A stretch of 64,000 bases of DNA, from NCBI RefSeq assembly GCF_022606355.1, contig NZ_JAHHZQ010000001.1, positions 868,001-932,000 of the forward strand, read 5' to 3'. A program made the position numbers and the translations under genes. This DNA comes from Leifsonia shinshuensis. GTDB taxonomy: Bacteria > Actinomycetota > Actinomycetes > Actinomycetales > Microbacteriaceae. Below are positions 3,954-56,198 of the stretch, in pieces. Within the stretch, counting starts at the first letter, position 1. Each line of letters starts with the position of its first letter. The notes below the pieces were generated by a model that was given only the letters and a program-made list of their open reading frames with translations, had not been told where the DNA came from and made no database searches.

Positions 3954-4014
3954 GCCGAAGGGCACGTCGTTGTCACTTCTCGACGCGAGAAGCGACAACG
4001 ACGTGCCCTTCGGC
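3954..4014. repeat. Long intergenic hairpin, family member 1
   Basis: 29-base arms separated by a three-base loop, with one mismatch. The outer ends read GCCGAAGGGCACG and CGTGCCCTTCGGC. The element sits between the converging pknL and DAHP synthase genes and could terminate transcription from both sides. The outer ends match two other hairpins at 41972-42038 and 56140-56198, while the cores differ. Confidence 0.85.
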
Positions 4015-7373: not shown

Positions 7374-9203
7374 GTGAACCAGTTCGAAATCCCCGCACTC
7401 GTCCCGGCCGACCCGGAAGCCAACGCGACGGACCTGCTCGTCCAGCGCGTCGCGGCCACCCCGGACGCGCCGCTGTTCAGCCTCCCGGACGGCGATGGCT
7501 GGAAGGACGTCACGGCCGCCGAGTTCCACCGCCAGGTCGTCGCACTGGCGAAGGGTATCGTCGCCGCCGGCATCCAGCCCGGCGACAAGATCGGCCTGAT
7601 GTGCAAGACGCGCTACGAGTGGACGCTGATCGACTTCGCGACCTGGTTCGCCGGCGCCGTGCTCGTGCCCATCTACGAGACCTCCTCCCCTGCCCAGGTG
7701 CAGTGGAACATGTCCGACTCCGGTGCGGTCGCCGTGATCCTGGAGGACGCGGAGATGTTCTCGCGGTTCGACGAGGTGCACCCCGACCTCCCGCTCATCC
7801 AGAACGTCTGGCAGCTGCACCTCGGCGACCTCGAGAAGCTCGTCAACGCAGGCGCAGATGTTCCGGACGAGGAGATCGAGCGCCGCAGGAACCTCGCCCG
7901 CGGCGAGGACATCGGCACCCTGATCTACACCTCCGGCTCGACCGGTCGGCCGAAGGGCTGCGTGCTCACCCACTCCAACTTCGTCGAGCTGTCGCGCAAC
8001 GCGGCGGAGGCGATCAAGGAGGTCGTCTCCCCGCCGGAGGGCGCGTCGACGCTGCTCTTCATCACCACGGCACACGTCTTCGCCCGGTTCATCGCGGTGC
8101 TGGCCGTCACCGGCGGAGTGAAGGTCGGCCACCAGGCCGACACCAAGCAGCTGCTGCCCGCGCTGGCCAGCTTCAAGCCGACCTTCCTGCTCGCGGTGCC
8201 GCGCGTGTTCGAGAAGGTCTACAACTCTGCGGAGCAGAAGGCGGAGGCCGGCGGCCGCGGCAAGATCTTCCGCGCGGCCGCGAAGGTCGCCGTCGAGCAC
8301 TCTAAGGCCGTCGAGGCCGGGTCGGTGCCGTTCGGGCTCAAGCTCAAGTTCGCGCTCTACGACCGGCTGGTGTTCTCGAAGCTTCGTGCGGCCATGGGTG
8401 GCCGCGTGAAGTTCGCGGTCTCCGGCTCCGCTCCGCTCGGATCGCACCTCGGCCACTTCTACCACAGCCTCGGCATCAAGATCCTCGAGGGCTACGGCCT
8501 CACCGAGACCACAGCGCCCGCTACGGTCAACCGCCCCGACATGTTCAAGATCGGCACGGTCGGCCCCGTCCTCCCCGGCGTGGCGGTGCGCCTCGTCGAA
8601 GACGGCGAGATCGAGGTCAAGGGCATCAACGTCTTCAAGGAGTACTGGAAGAACCCGGAGGCGACGGCCGCCGCGTTCGACGACGGCTGGTTCCGCACCG
8701 GCGACCTGGGCGCGCTCGATGACGACGGCTACTTGACGATCACCGGTCGCAAGAAGGAGATCATCGTCACCGCCGGAGGCAAGAACGTCTCCCCCGCCGC
8801 GCTCGAGGACCCGATCCGCGCCAACCCGCTGGTCAGCCAGGTGATCGTCGTCGGCGACCAGAAGCCGTTCATCGCAGCGCTCATCACCCTCGACACCGAG
8901 ATGCTGCCGACCTGGCTGGCGAACAACGGCGAGGACAAGGACATGACCCTCGCCGAGGCCTCGGTCAACCCCGCGGTGAACGCCGAGATCCAGCGCGCGA
9001 TCGACGCGGCGAACCAGGGGGTCTCGCGCGCCGAGAGCATCCGCAAGTTCGTCATCCTGGCCACCGACCTGACCGAGGCCAGCGGCCACCTGACGCCCAA
9101 GCTCAGCATCAAGCGCAACGTCATCCTCGCCGACTTCGCCGACGTCATCGACGGCGTCTACAGCGGCAACCCCAGCACCCAGGGCATCTCCCTCGCCCAC
9201 TAG
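7374..9203 (+). CDS. fadD15: Long-chain fatty-acid-CoA ligase (FadD15-like)
   Basis: 609 residues, full length for the long-chain acyl-CoA synthetase class of AMP-forming enzymes. The ATP/AMP signature is TLIYTSGSTGRPKGC, followed by GYGLTETTAP, DGWFRTGDLG and the hinge region GRKKEIIVTAGGKNVSP. It activates fatty acids to acyl-CoA through an acyl-adenylate, at the inner face of the membrane or in the cytoplasm. fadD15 is found in the same neighbourhood in mycobacteria. The GTG start at 7374 follows GAGGGAG at suitable spacing. The stop codon overlaps the stop of the converging DUF559 gene by four bases, so its terminator would have to lie inside that gene's 3' end, where a 53-bp palindrome is found. 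Confidence 0.93.
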   Translation: MNQFEIPALVPADPEANATDLLVQRVAATPDAPLFSLPDGDGWKDVTAAEFHRQVVALAKGIVAAGIQPGDKIGLMCKTRYEWTLIDFATWFAGAVLVPIYETSSPAQVQWNMSDSGAVAVILEDAEMFSRFDEVHPDLPLIQNVWQLHLGDLEKLVNAGADVPDEEIERRRNLARGEDIGTLIYTSGSTGRPKGCVLTHSNFVELSRNAAEAIKEVVSPPEGASTLLFITTAHVFARFIAVLAVTGGVKVGHQADTKQLLPALASFKPTFLLAVPRVFEKVYNSAEQKAEAGGRGKIFRAAAKVAVEHSKAVEAGSVPFGLKLKFALYDRLVFSKLRAAMGGRVKFAVSGSAPLGSHLGHFYHSLGIKILEGYGLTETTAPATVNRPDMFKIGTVGPVLPGVAVRLVEDGEIEVKGINVFKEYWKNPEATAAAFDDGWFRTGDLGALDDDGYLTITGRKKEIIVTAGGKNVSPAALEDPIRANPLVSQVIVVGDQKPFIAALITLDTEMLPTWLANNGEDKDMTLAEASVNPAVNAEIQRAIDAANQGVSRAESIRKFVILATDLTEASGHLTPKLSIKRNVILADFADVIDGVYSGNPSTQGISLAH

Positions 9204-10051
9204 CCCCGAGATTCGTCACGAATGTCGACTTTCGTGCCACGAATGTCGACATTCGTGACGAATCTTCTGAGGCGATCGCGGAATGCGTCGCGGTTCCCGA
9301 AGAGGTCGTGCGCCGTCACGCGCACGACGCGCCAGCCCTCGGACTCCAGGACGTCACGCCGCTCGATGTCGAGGTGCCATTGACGTCGATCCACTCGATG
9401 TCCGTCACCTTCGTATTCGAAGGCGATGCGATGCTCGGGGAGGCTGAGGTCGGGATGCAGAACCATCCGACCCCGGCGCAGCGACACCGGACGATTGACT
9501 TCGAGTCCGACGAAGCCGTCCGCCTCCAACAGCAGCCGGAGTAACGACTCAGGCCGGGAGTCCGCGCCGAAACGGATCCTCGGGAGCGCCCAGGTGCGCT
9601 CGCGGGGTCCTTTCGTCCGGTGCAGCGTGCCGGCGGCATCCATCAGCTCATGGATCTCCGCGAGGGGTTCGCGCCCGCGGGCACCGACCAGATGGTCCCC
9701 TGCCGCGACGAGATCCTCCCTGTCGAGTTCCCCCGAGAGCTGGCACCATACCTGAGCCGGCACGCAGAGCGGCAACCCGTCGACGATATCGCCGTGCACG
9801 CTCCCGAGGCTGTGGCCGATGACGCCCCGGCCTCGGGGCGGGGTACGGGGAAATGCGACGGAGATGTGCAGCGGCCCCTCGGACTGCCCCGAGGGAAGCG
9901 GGACGTCGAGGAGCGCAGCCGCAGTCTGATGGCTGAAGAAGGCGCCCTCCGGCATCAGCGGCAGGTAGGCGAGACACAGTTCGCGCACGCTGCGCGGCGC
10001 GATCGTCAGGCGCACCGCGTGGAACGGGCGATGAGTAGAGGTGGTGCGCAT
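9200..10051 (-). CDS. DUF559 / Vsr-like endonuclease-domain protein
   Basis: 283 residues from the ATG at 10051; an upstream in-frame ATG at 10093 would add 14 residues. The N-terminal half resembles AbiEi-antitoxin/DUF559 proteins frequent in Actinobacteria (PFHAVR, then LCLAYLPLMPEGAFFSHQTAAALLDVPLP). The usual winged-helix at the very N-terminus seems missing, so the gene may be trimmed. The C-terminal half is a Vsr-like PD-(D/E)XK fold: HPDLSLPEHRIAFEYEGDGH, then DIERRDVLESEGWRVVRVTAHDLF. The last 20 or so residues (from RRFVTNVDIRG) are encoded by a 53-bp palindrome (9211-9263) whose relative lies upstream at 10142-10194. Function unknown; DNA nicking and toxin-antitoxin roles have been proposed for related families. 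The stop overlaps fadD15. Confidence 0.75.
   Translation of the reverse strand: MRTTSTHRPFHAVRLTIAPRSVRELCLAYLPLMPEGAFFSHQTAAALLDVPLPSGQSEGPLHISVAFPRTPPRGRGVIGHSLGSVHGDIVDGLPLCVPAQVWCQLSGELDREDLVAAGDHLVGARGREPLAEIHELMDAAGTLHRTKGPRERTWALPRIRFGADSRPESLLRLLLEADGFVGLEVNRPVSLRRGRMVLHPDLSLPEHRIAFEYEGDGHRVDRRQWHLDIERRDVLESEGWRVVRVTAHDLFGNRDAFRDRLRRFVTNVDIRGTKVDIRDESRG
9211..9263. repeat. 53-bp composite palindrome, downstream copy
   Basis: Layout 13-6-15-6-13: ATTCGTCACGAAT (9211-9223), GTCGAC, TTTCGTGCCACGAAT (9230-9244), GTCGAC, ATTCGTGACGAAT (9251-9263). Each odd-length unit is a palindrome around its centre and the whole block is nearly self-complementary. It lies inside the 3' end of the DUF559 gene, right after the fadD15 stop. 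Confidence 0.9.
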
Positions 10052-10141
10052 CTCCCCATCGTCGCAACGGCGGGGCGCCGAGCTTCCCCTCATCGACGAA
10101 TCTGTGGAGAACCCGCCTCAGCGCCCTGCCTGTGGGCGAAC

Positions 10142-10194
10142 ATTCGTGACGAATCTCGACATTCGTGGCACGAATCACGACATTCGTGACGAAT
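10142..10194. repeat. 53-bp composite palindrome, upstream copy
   Basis: The same 13-6-15-6-13 layout: ATTCGTGACGAAT (10142-10154), CTCGAC, ATTCGTGGCACGAAT (10161-10175), CACGAC, ATTCGTGACGAAT (10182-10194). It lies directly upstream of the DUF559 gene, about 930 bases from the downstream copy. The six-base linkers differ slightly between copies while the palindromic units are conserved. Confidence 0.9.
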
Positions 10195-10218
10195 CTCATC
10201 GAAGGTGACACGAGTGAC

Positions 10219-10231
10219 ATTCGTGACGAAT
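10219..10231. repeat. Solitary ATTCGTGACGAAT unit
   Basis: A fourth upstream 13-base unit, separated from the composite palindrome by a degenerate 24-base stretch (10195-10218) and ending ten bases before the stop of the epimerase gene. No further full copies were seen in the window. Confidence 0.85.
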
Positions 10232-10240
10232 GTCGAGGGG

Positions 10241-11089
10241 CTAGAGGTGGTCGCGCCAGGAGTGGGTGGGGGCGTAGCCGAGGATGCGGCGGGCCTTGTC
10301 GATCGAGAGGAGGGTGTCGGTGTTGTCGAGGTCGTCGCGCTTCAGCGGGACGCCGGGGAAGACCTCGGCGACGAGCTCGGCGTTCGGGCGCGTCATCACC
10401 GTGTCGGCCGCCGCGATGATGAACCGGTCGAAGCCCGTGGTGTCCCACTCCAGCGCGCGCATGACCGCCTGCGCGCCGTCGCGCGCGTCGATGTAGCCCC
10501 ACAGGTTCCACTTTCGCGCCCGCGCATCGGCGTCGAACGACGGGAACGCCGCATAGTCGGCGGGCTCCATCACGTTCGAGAACCGCAGCGCCACGATCTT
10601 GAGCGCGGGATCCCAGCGCACGAGTTCGATCGCCATCTGCTCTTCGAGGTGCTTGACCAGCGAATAGGTGGATTCGGGACGGGCCGGATAGTCCTCGTCG
10701 ACCGGGATGTACGGCGGCGGAACGTCGAAAGGGAGGCCGAGCACGGTCTCGCTCGACGCGTACACGATGTTGCGGATGCCGGCCCGTCGTGCCGCCTGGA
10801 ACACGTTGTAGGTGACCCGGATGTTGTTGTGGAACGTCGCGACATCGCTCAGGATGGCCGGAGCCGGGATCGCCGCGAGGTGGACGATCGCGTCGAACCC
10901 GCCGTGGAGGTCGTCCACGCCGAGGATCGCATCCAGCGTCTGCCCGTAGTCCGTGAGATCGACGCGCACGAAGCCGCGGCCGCGCTCCCCCGTCGTGTCC
11001 AGGTTGACGACGGTGTGCCCTGCCGCGCGTAGTTCGCGCACAACCGTGCGCCCGAGCTTTCCCGATCCTCCGGTGACTGCGATGTCCAT
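10241..11089 (-). CDS. NAD(P)-dependent epimerase/dehydratase family protein
   Basis: 282 residues, an extended short-chain dehydrogenase. The nucleotide-binding motif is VTGGSGKLGRTVVREL at the N-terminus; the catalytic region has YASSETVLG and a YSLVKHLEEQ segment, giving the Tyr-X3-Lys pair. NAD(P) is expected as cofactor and a nucleotide sugar or similar sugar derivative as substrate, but the substrate cannot be read from sequence. The ATG at 11089 is six bases downstream of TAGACT (11096-11101, minus strand), indicating a leaderless transcript. It stands alone between the DUF559 cassette and def. Confidence 0.85.
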   Translation of the reverse strand: MDIAVTGGSGKLGRTVVRELRAAGHTVVNLDTTGERGRGFVRVDLTDYGQTLDAILGVDDLHGGFDAIVHLAAIPAPAILSDVATFHNNIRVTYNVFQAARRAGIRNIVYASSETVLGLPFDVPPPYIPVDEDYPARPESTYSLVKHLEEQMAIELVRWDPALKIVALRFSNVMEPADYAAFPSFDADARARKWNLWGYIDARDGAQAVMRALEWDTTGFDRFIIAAADTVMTRPNAELVAEVFPGVPLKRDDLDNTDTLLSIDKARRILGYAPTHSWRDHL

Positions 11090-41971: not shown

Positions 41972-42038
41972 ACCGCCGAGGGGCACGCAAACGCCCCTAA
42001 AACCGGGTTTTGGGGGCGTTTGCGTGCCCCTCGACGGT
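41972..42038. repeat. Long intergenic hairpin, family member 2
   Basis: 33-base arms around a one-base centre with two mismatches. Ends GCCGAGGGGCACG and CGTGCCCCTCGACGG; the core includes AAAACC/GGTTTT. It lies between the converging MFS and glycolipid-binding genes. Confidence 0.85.
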
Positions 42039-56139: not shown

Positions 56140-56198
56140 CCGAGGGGCACGTAGGCGCCCCTAAAACGCGCTTTTAGGGGCGCCTACGTGCCCCTCGG
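56140..56198. repeat. Long intergenic hairpin, family member 3
   Basis: Perfect 27-base arms and a five-base loop (CGCGC). Ends CCGAGGGGCACG and CGTGCCCCTCGG, core GCCCCTAAAA / TTTTAGGGGC. It lies between the converging MFS and SseB-like genes. Confidence 0.88.

Follow-up and report, generated by a model that had tools for sequence, protein, structure and literature searches.

Why should a single nuclease gene in Leifsonia be enclosed by two copies of the same composite palindrome? The question was raised by a 64-kb stretch of the chromosome (the window), in which the first-pass annotation saw a cassette whose palindromic ends are perhaps recognised by its own protein. The gene, its protein, its relatives and the distribution of the palindromes were analysed computationally. 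The data point to a previously unrecognised enzyme-and-repeat partnership.

The bracketed gene and its protein

Element 1 (9211..9263) and element 2 (10142..10194), both 53 bp long and without assigned strand, were checked directly. The 13-6-15-6-13 layout claimed for them was borne out, and so was a lone 13-bp dyad at 10219..10231 (unstranded), which adjoins element 2. The unit sequence had been described correctly overall, except that the 15-mer of the first block starts with TTTCG and not with ATTCG. The ATTCGT unit is indeed absent elsewhere in the 64 kb, even with up to two mismatches: five exact units were found against 0.67 expected within two mismatches, and none of 100 shuffles of the window reached five. 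The two blocks form 60-nt arms with 90% complementarity. As DNA, block 1 folds with –30.6 kcal/mol (z –10.6) and block 2 more weakly (–27.6, z –4.2). At the place matching 10219–10231 in another Leifsonia (L077), an expanded array is present. A second palindrome family, overlooked at first, has three 57-bp copies in the window (3956..4012, 41977..42033 and 56141..56197, unstranded). This GGGGCAC family also brackets a nuclease paralog at G000:C8:27277, G000 being the genome of the window.

The nuclease gene (9200..10093, minus strand) encodes 297 residues. A DUF559/MTES_1575 gene is bracketed as reported, but it does not lie wholly between the blocks: element 1 lies between the stops of the fadD15 and nuclease genes and overlaps the last nuclease codons (stop 9200–9202). 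In 9203–9263, the palindrome letters read in frame are the C-terminal tail of the nuclease (FVTNVDIRGTKVDIRDESRG). In the direction of transcription, element 2 follows the epimerase gene and precedes the nuclease gene. The two conserved neighbours are an AMP-binding gene for a fadD15-like acyl-CoA ligase (7374..9203, plus strand) and an NAD-dependent epimerase-type gene (10241..11089, minus strand). Next to the nuclease gene of the window, neither a toxin nor a modification partner is apparent.

The Pfam matches of the nuclease stay under the curated cut-offs (MTES_1575, 31.9 bits against 38.2; DUF559, 18.8 against 20.6). Its AlphaFold2 model has a pLDDT of 91.5. Model residues of about 176–284 match the catalytic domain of I-Bth0305I (3r3p) and Vsr (1cw0), and residues of about 32–174 match AbiEi (aligned to residues 55–195 of 6y8q). 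The closest solved fold for the catalytic domain is that of a homing endonuclease. Foldseek alone gave no match to the model at E <= 0.001, and its top rows were long mitoribosomal proteins with an rmsd of about 15; the fold claim rests on the separate 3r3p and 1cw0 matches. Among 46 aligned members, E182 and D215 are each conserved in 45, and H232 and D242 in all 46. The name of the EDxHD motif is taken from the accessible text of PMC3943268, and the assignment of the four residues to it is our own. As many as 19 of the 46 members are hit by PADLOC AbiEi models. The protein is modelled as an AbiEi-like N-terminal domain plus a Vsr/EDxHD fold with conserved catalytic-type residues. The gene is under purifying selection, yet it is changing faster than its two neighbours.

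Gene position and palindrome types in the genus

Homologs at E <= 1e-20 were found in 27 of the 28 genus genomes. An ortholog with 50% identity or more is present in 25, and the other matches listed have at most 46%. The same epimerase gene adjoins 24 of the 25 orthologs, with fadD15 visible on the other side in 23; in the remaining one the contig ends before fadD15. The 25th ortholog (G007, 50% identity) is found at a different locus. Homologs are scarce in plasmid records (4 of 72,556) and in phage records (1 of 50,697). A gene that travels with its palindromic ends would agree with the palindromes at both ends, but the single locus of the 24 orthologs contradicts it within the genus, and the rarity on plasmids and phages does not support it either. 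Moreover, the type of flanking palindrome switches at that fixed locus, and hardly any credence is left to the mobile cassette. Mobility of the gene to its own target site, a trait of EDxHD homing endonucleases (intron-borne or free-standing), was likewise not seen, the locus being fixed and intergenic in 24 of 25 orthologs. The first-pass annotation had named a fixed position with ordinary flanks in relatives as evidence against its cassette. The position is fixed, but the flanks are not ordinary.

ATTCG-type boxes flank both sides of 17 of the 25 orthologs. The other eight carry other palindromes, such as GATTTGYGCCAAATC in G003, G013, G019 and G026; the flanks of the G001 and G012 orthologs were read by eye. 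Because the orthologs are syntenic and their flank palindromes are not alike, the palindrome type differs between species for one gene at one place.

The ATTCGT unit has 148 copies in G000 (4.78 Mb). Seventy-four complete triple elements were found there within three mismatches, and the 50 listed have no mismatch. The unit is present in 24 of 60 genomes searched, with 0 to 456 copies in the same genus and 0 or 1 in other genera. A scan of public genomes returned at least 80 stretches with the unit, all of them Leifsonia records among the matches listed. In congeners the unit is also arranged differently, as pairs with a separation of 40 bp and as triples with a pitch of 20 bp. A RAYT partner for these palindromes was considered and set aside, since the HUH/Y1 transposase (PF01797) was detected in 0 of the 28 genus genomes by a search that was positive in 5 of 14 controls, including E. 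coli. A phage origin of the element was rejected as well, with no IMG/VR contig carrying the exact 34-nt pattern.

The census of the types was extended over the genus. In the four genomes where GATTTGYGCCAAATC flanks the gene, it has 78, 66, 65 and 3 copies (3 in G003); it has 24, 6, 3 and 2 in G009, G014, G005 and G001, and none in 20 genomes. ATTCGTGCCGAAT, counted in both orientations, has 18–135 copies in all eight genomes whose gene is so flanked; elsewhere it has 54–59 in G013, G019 and G026, 10–38 in six more and 1–2 in four. ATTCGTSACGAAT has 22–456 copies in all nine genomes with this flank. It has 98 and 81 in G020 and G024, where the gene flanks carry both kinds, and these two genomes hold many copies of two types. 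Elsewhere, ATTCGTSACGAAT has 31, 28 and 20 copies in G026, G017 and G001 and 1–19 in seven more; in G026 and G001 the gene has another flank type. None of the three was found in G004, G018, G023, G007 and G012, which have no ortholog or a differently flanked one. Such counts would be expected if types had succeeded each other over time, and they are not one-to-one. Beyond the genus, the palindrome of the G040 gene was found within one mismatch 14 times in G040, four times in its congener G058, once in G222 and in none of nine others. Two of the four copies in G058 adjoin its own nuclease gene.

Two orthologs look broken, one out of frame (G011) and one without its C-terminal end (G006). The two genomes have 13 and 1 copies of ATTCGTSACGAAT and 18 and 2 of ATTCGTGCCGAAT, respectively. 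In G008, the open-frame nuclease has Q in place of the near-invariant E226, a replacement shared by one other member (L305). Mismatches occur in 20 of the 22 elements of G008 and are absent from 2, the sole mismatch-rich case among four triple-element genomes. The three cases fit decay after loss of activity, but they are few.

G000 has three full-length paralogs, flanked by ATTCGT, CGAGGGGCAC...GTGCCCCTCG and TTCCTCACTT...AAGTGAGGAA palindromes. Unguided clustering of inverted repeats (arms of at least 12) in 1.65 Mb of G000 gave these three as the largest families, with 24, 36 (two subtypes with outer boxes alike) and 9 members. In this third of the genome, the largest families pair one to one with the full-length paralogs, of which the third, on C5, falls outside the stretch. 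Only 4 of its 1464 genes are bracketed by same-family elements, namely both of its full-length DUF559 genes and two unrelated genes. The palindromes are genome-wide, as the first-pass annotation had allowed for in a case against its cassette, but the lack of preference for DUF559 genes that it had coupled with this is false. Comparable palindromes are lacking at a partial relative in G000 (C7:383315) and at two further PF18741 hits of this genome (L016 and L018). Each full-length paralog of G000 has its own dispersed palindrome family.

Flanks of the family and structure of the elements

Fifty-nine family loci (25 orthologs, 5 genus paralogs and 29 outside the genus) were scored for the likeness of their own left and right flanks, with the level set at 99.9% of 1475 mismatched flank pairs. 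This level was exceeded by 45 of the 59 loci (20 of 25, 4 of 5 and 21 of 29, respectively) and by 1% of 600 random windows of G000. L281, the failing one of the five genus paralogs, is also without the catalytic-type glutamate. A further 40 genus paralogs were taken as the next in the genus match list, with two skipped (one already seen and one at a contig start), and 36 of the 40 exceeded the same level. Many of the 40 are syntenic copies of each other, which made a null from their own set (mean 30, 99.9% level 307) unusable, and the level of the 59 loci was applied. Altogether 72 of 102 genus matches were examined, including the 40 and two G000 paralogs. The homologs from plasmid and phage collections (three from Arthrobacter, one from Tsukamurella and one on an unverified phage scaffold) were above the level in 5 of 5 cases, with flanks extending 60 bp rather than 20 into the gene and gene ends partly estimated; two of them (L315 and L318) have an inverted repeat on one side only.

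The score, which gauges the likeness of both flanks and not palindromy and is failed by 14 of the 59 and 4 of the 40 loci, was added because a strict inverted-repeat test misses imperfect elements. To pass the strict test, a locus must have an inverted repeat on each side, with 9 nt in common between the two; 25 of 59 and 16 of 40 loci did so, versus 2 of 1000 random windows. On the tree, in which L277 received a GATTTG label though its flank is a hybrid sequence, flank types cluster; therefore, the species are not independent. The left and right flanks of most family members share member-specific, often palindromic sequence. This nuclease family is associated with flanking repeats, which differ by member and are dispersed. 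The REP/RAYT-like logic suggested at the outset has held up, with the palindrome genome-wide, the gene bracketed and most of the homologs examined bracketed by their own repeats.

In the 1.65 Mb of G000, 66 perfect boxes were counted, none with one mismatch and seven with two. This count is a cleaner test than the comparison of ten orthologous single-element pairs (nine G000 sites, array sites dropped), because the search patterns for the pairs partly fix the boxes. In the pairs, none of 240 box positions but 18 of 120 linker positions have changed, and the neighbouring genes have dS values of 0.15–0.39 in three species pairs. Since the boxes are unchanged while linkers and neighbour genes drift, they are held by selection or conversion. 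Of 36 box pairs, only 29 have an intact central 15-mer, and some of the pairs extend across adjacent array elements. Among the 369 spacings below 130 bp in the scanned loci, 301 have a centre-to-centre pitch of 20 bp, about two helical turns. The ATTCGT linkers pair less than shuffled ones (2.76 versus 3.25 of 6), which rules out a long-hairpin constraint in this family; the element is therefore a set of dyads rather than one hairpin. On the other hand, the strict 57-bp form of the GGGGCAC family has 38 equal-length copies with strong compensatory changes (a loose pattern was discarded, 46 of its 92 hits being inside genes). Because long-hairpin pairing is absent in one family and strong in the other, one recognition mode may not fit all.

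By our own simple gene caller, 18 ATTCGT clusters comprise 11 convergent, 5 tandem, 1 divergent and 1 in a gene, and the background gaps are 105, 398 and 204 convergent, tandem and divergent. The clusters show a preference for convergent 3' ends. Both flanks could be placed in G000 for 24 of 73 clusters in named loci, with some clusters sharing a site; 19 of the 24 have the element in G000 too (with varying array size), and 5 do not. Succession of palindrome families at one site was examined with element clusters from other genus genomes, and 67 of the 104 could be placed by both flanks, at 20 sites of G000. Sixteen of these sites lie outside the nuclease locus. In a purely descriptive count, G000 has ATTCGT boxes at 2 of them, a different palindrome family at 4 and a terminator-like hairpin at 1; no box was seen at the other 9, one of which has a 658-bp gap. 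At the aligned empty and filled sites, which are compared between species and are too diverged, neither a target-site duplication nor a clean junction could be read. At the orthologous intergenic site G000:C1:1003840, a ATTTGCGGCAAAT-type 13-27-13 pair stands in G000 where L097 (TF02-11) has a four-element ATTCGT-type array, as if one palindrome type had been swapped for another.

Candidate explanations and known systems

We consider it probable that a chromosomally fixed nuclease of the Vsr/EDxHD fold targets the palindromes that bracket its gene and are dispersed at intergenic 3' ends, with the logic of a REPtron and an enzyme unrelated to HUH/Y1. We infer that a dimer recognises and cuts the element and that repair spreads or homogenises the copies. 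A nuclease dimer would bind two dyad boxes 40 bp apart in an element of 53–59 bp in the genus, and would nick or cut at the bound element. Break and repair could then copy the element to new intergenic sites, enlarge arrays and overwrite altered copies, and nuclease and repeats would thereby evolve together. Several results count against this reading: motif types overlap between genomes, the flank type of G003 has 3 copies only, G008 combines an open-frame ortholog with mismatched elements, 14 of 59 and 4 of 40 loci fail the flank score, flank types cluster on the tree, no junction could be read at the empty and filled sites, hairpin pairing differs between the two families, and the central 15-mer is not always intact. 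A broader proposal is tentative, at somewhat less than even probability: a widespread Actinomycetota class, unrelated to REP/RAYT, in which Vsr/EDxHD nucleases cut altered or unoccupied sites and repair copies the cognate palindrome in; this would keep the boxes free of changes, and the genomic set as a whole would switch type along with its enzyme.

The constant boxes with drifting linkers, the pitch of about two helical turns and the AbiEi-like N-terminal fold would also suit a repressor or architectural protein, in which this domain or the whole protein binds the palindromes, flank copies autoregulate, dispersed copies regulate or organise the genome and nuclease activity is secondary. However, the elements are mostly at 3' ends and therefore most are not promoter sites. 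Elements on both sides of the nuclease gene, copy numbers from 0 to 456 between congeners and conserved catalytic-type residues also count against such an operator system, and we regard it as unlikely. Strict box conservation, the homing endonuclease as closest solved catalytic fold and the PADLOC AbiEi matches in up to 19 of 46 members could instead reflect homing-type conflict or defence. The nuclease would then cut DNA that lacks the palindromes or has altered ones, and the dispersed copies would be self marks or an addiction device. This is improbable, given the synteny of 24 of 25 orthologs, a cognate repeat that can be nearly absent (G003) and neighbours among which no toxin or modification partner is evident in the window.

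Ordinary terminators or RNA-processing hairpins at 3' ends, shared across the gene by gene conversion, would explain the 3'-end and convergent placement and the strong folding of block 1 as DNA (less so of block 2), and the RNA-regulating protein FASTKD4 is likewise reported to have a Vsr-like fold (PMC11879112). However, since the ATTCGT linkers are less complementary than shuffled ones, a long hairpin is not kept, and member-specific sharing is above the null in 45 of 59 and 36 of 40 loci. Moreover, like terminator hairpins around a gene occur once in the 1.65 Mb, at C1:300461–301594, and this reading is quite improbable. That site, where tandem paralogous genes for exported-type proteins carry near-identical terminator-like hairpins, is the one other place in the stretch where like inverted repeats outside arrays form a pair 600–1400 bp apart.

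The targeting of bracketing, dispersed palindromes by a fixed nuclease has its nearest counterpart in REPtrons, described in the accessible part of PMC8266576 as one fixed, mostly single-copy enzyme gene with palindromes dispersed in the same genome and joint evolution. The dispersal of REP palindromes is tied there to one enzyme class, the HUH/Y1 transposases. RAYT genes are flanked by REP-type repeats or long inverted repeats, and a palindrome superfamily apparently without dedicated transposase was noted in the same 2013 survey (PMC3733652, as far as its open text goes). The Leifsonia palindromes are similarly dispersed and also flank the enzyme gene, and as with REP/RAYT there is a pairing of cognate enzyme and repeat, here by genomic association alone and with overlapping types. 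In contrast to REP/RAYT, the enzyme has the predicted Vsr/EDxHD fold, and the genus elements measure 53–59 bp with boxes 40 bp apart. What would be new in the partnership is the enzyme class; by logic alone it is REPtron-like.

I-Bth0305I is described as dimerising on a target of nearly 60 bp (PMC3943268), a length similar to that of the 53–59 bp elements. Unlike this and other EDxHD homing endonucleases, the Leifsonia gene is not moving at its locus; its supposed target is palindromic and present in many copies, and the N-terminal domain is AbiEi-like. The extra N-terminal domain and the cognate repeats that bracket the gene also set it apart from the Vsr mismatch endonuclease and from DUF559/MTES_1575, and the fusion of the AbiEi-like domain to a nuclease domain from AbiEi antitoxins. 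The 57-bp family resembles MITEs as short, dispersed, fixed-length inverted repeats with conserved ends, but no parent transposon was identified, and no target-site duplication is readable at the diverged between-species sites. In the open literature, no report of a nuclease–palindrome partnership was found, subscription papers being mostly outside the search. If true, the partnership would be a second, unrelated enzyme class with REP logic and would show convergent evolution of palindrome dispersal, and it would offer a role for many proteins that now bear the label DUF559 or MTES_1575. Recognition is directly testable with the many natural pairs of enzyme and target, whose targets differ and of which three are in G000.

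Other repeats were noted in the same genome. On C1, C7 and C8 of G000 there are small inverted-repeat families, TCCGGAGATC with five members and ACGGAGGAGATC with three, as well as four ATTTGCNGCAAAT boxes, and no partner gene was identified for any of them. On C7, a big array (237566–238420, L149) has 17 dyads in one stretch.
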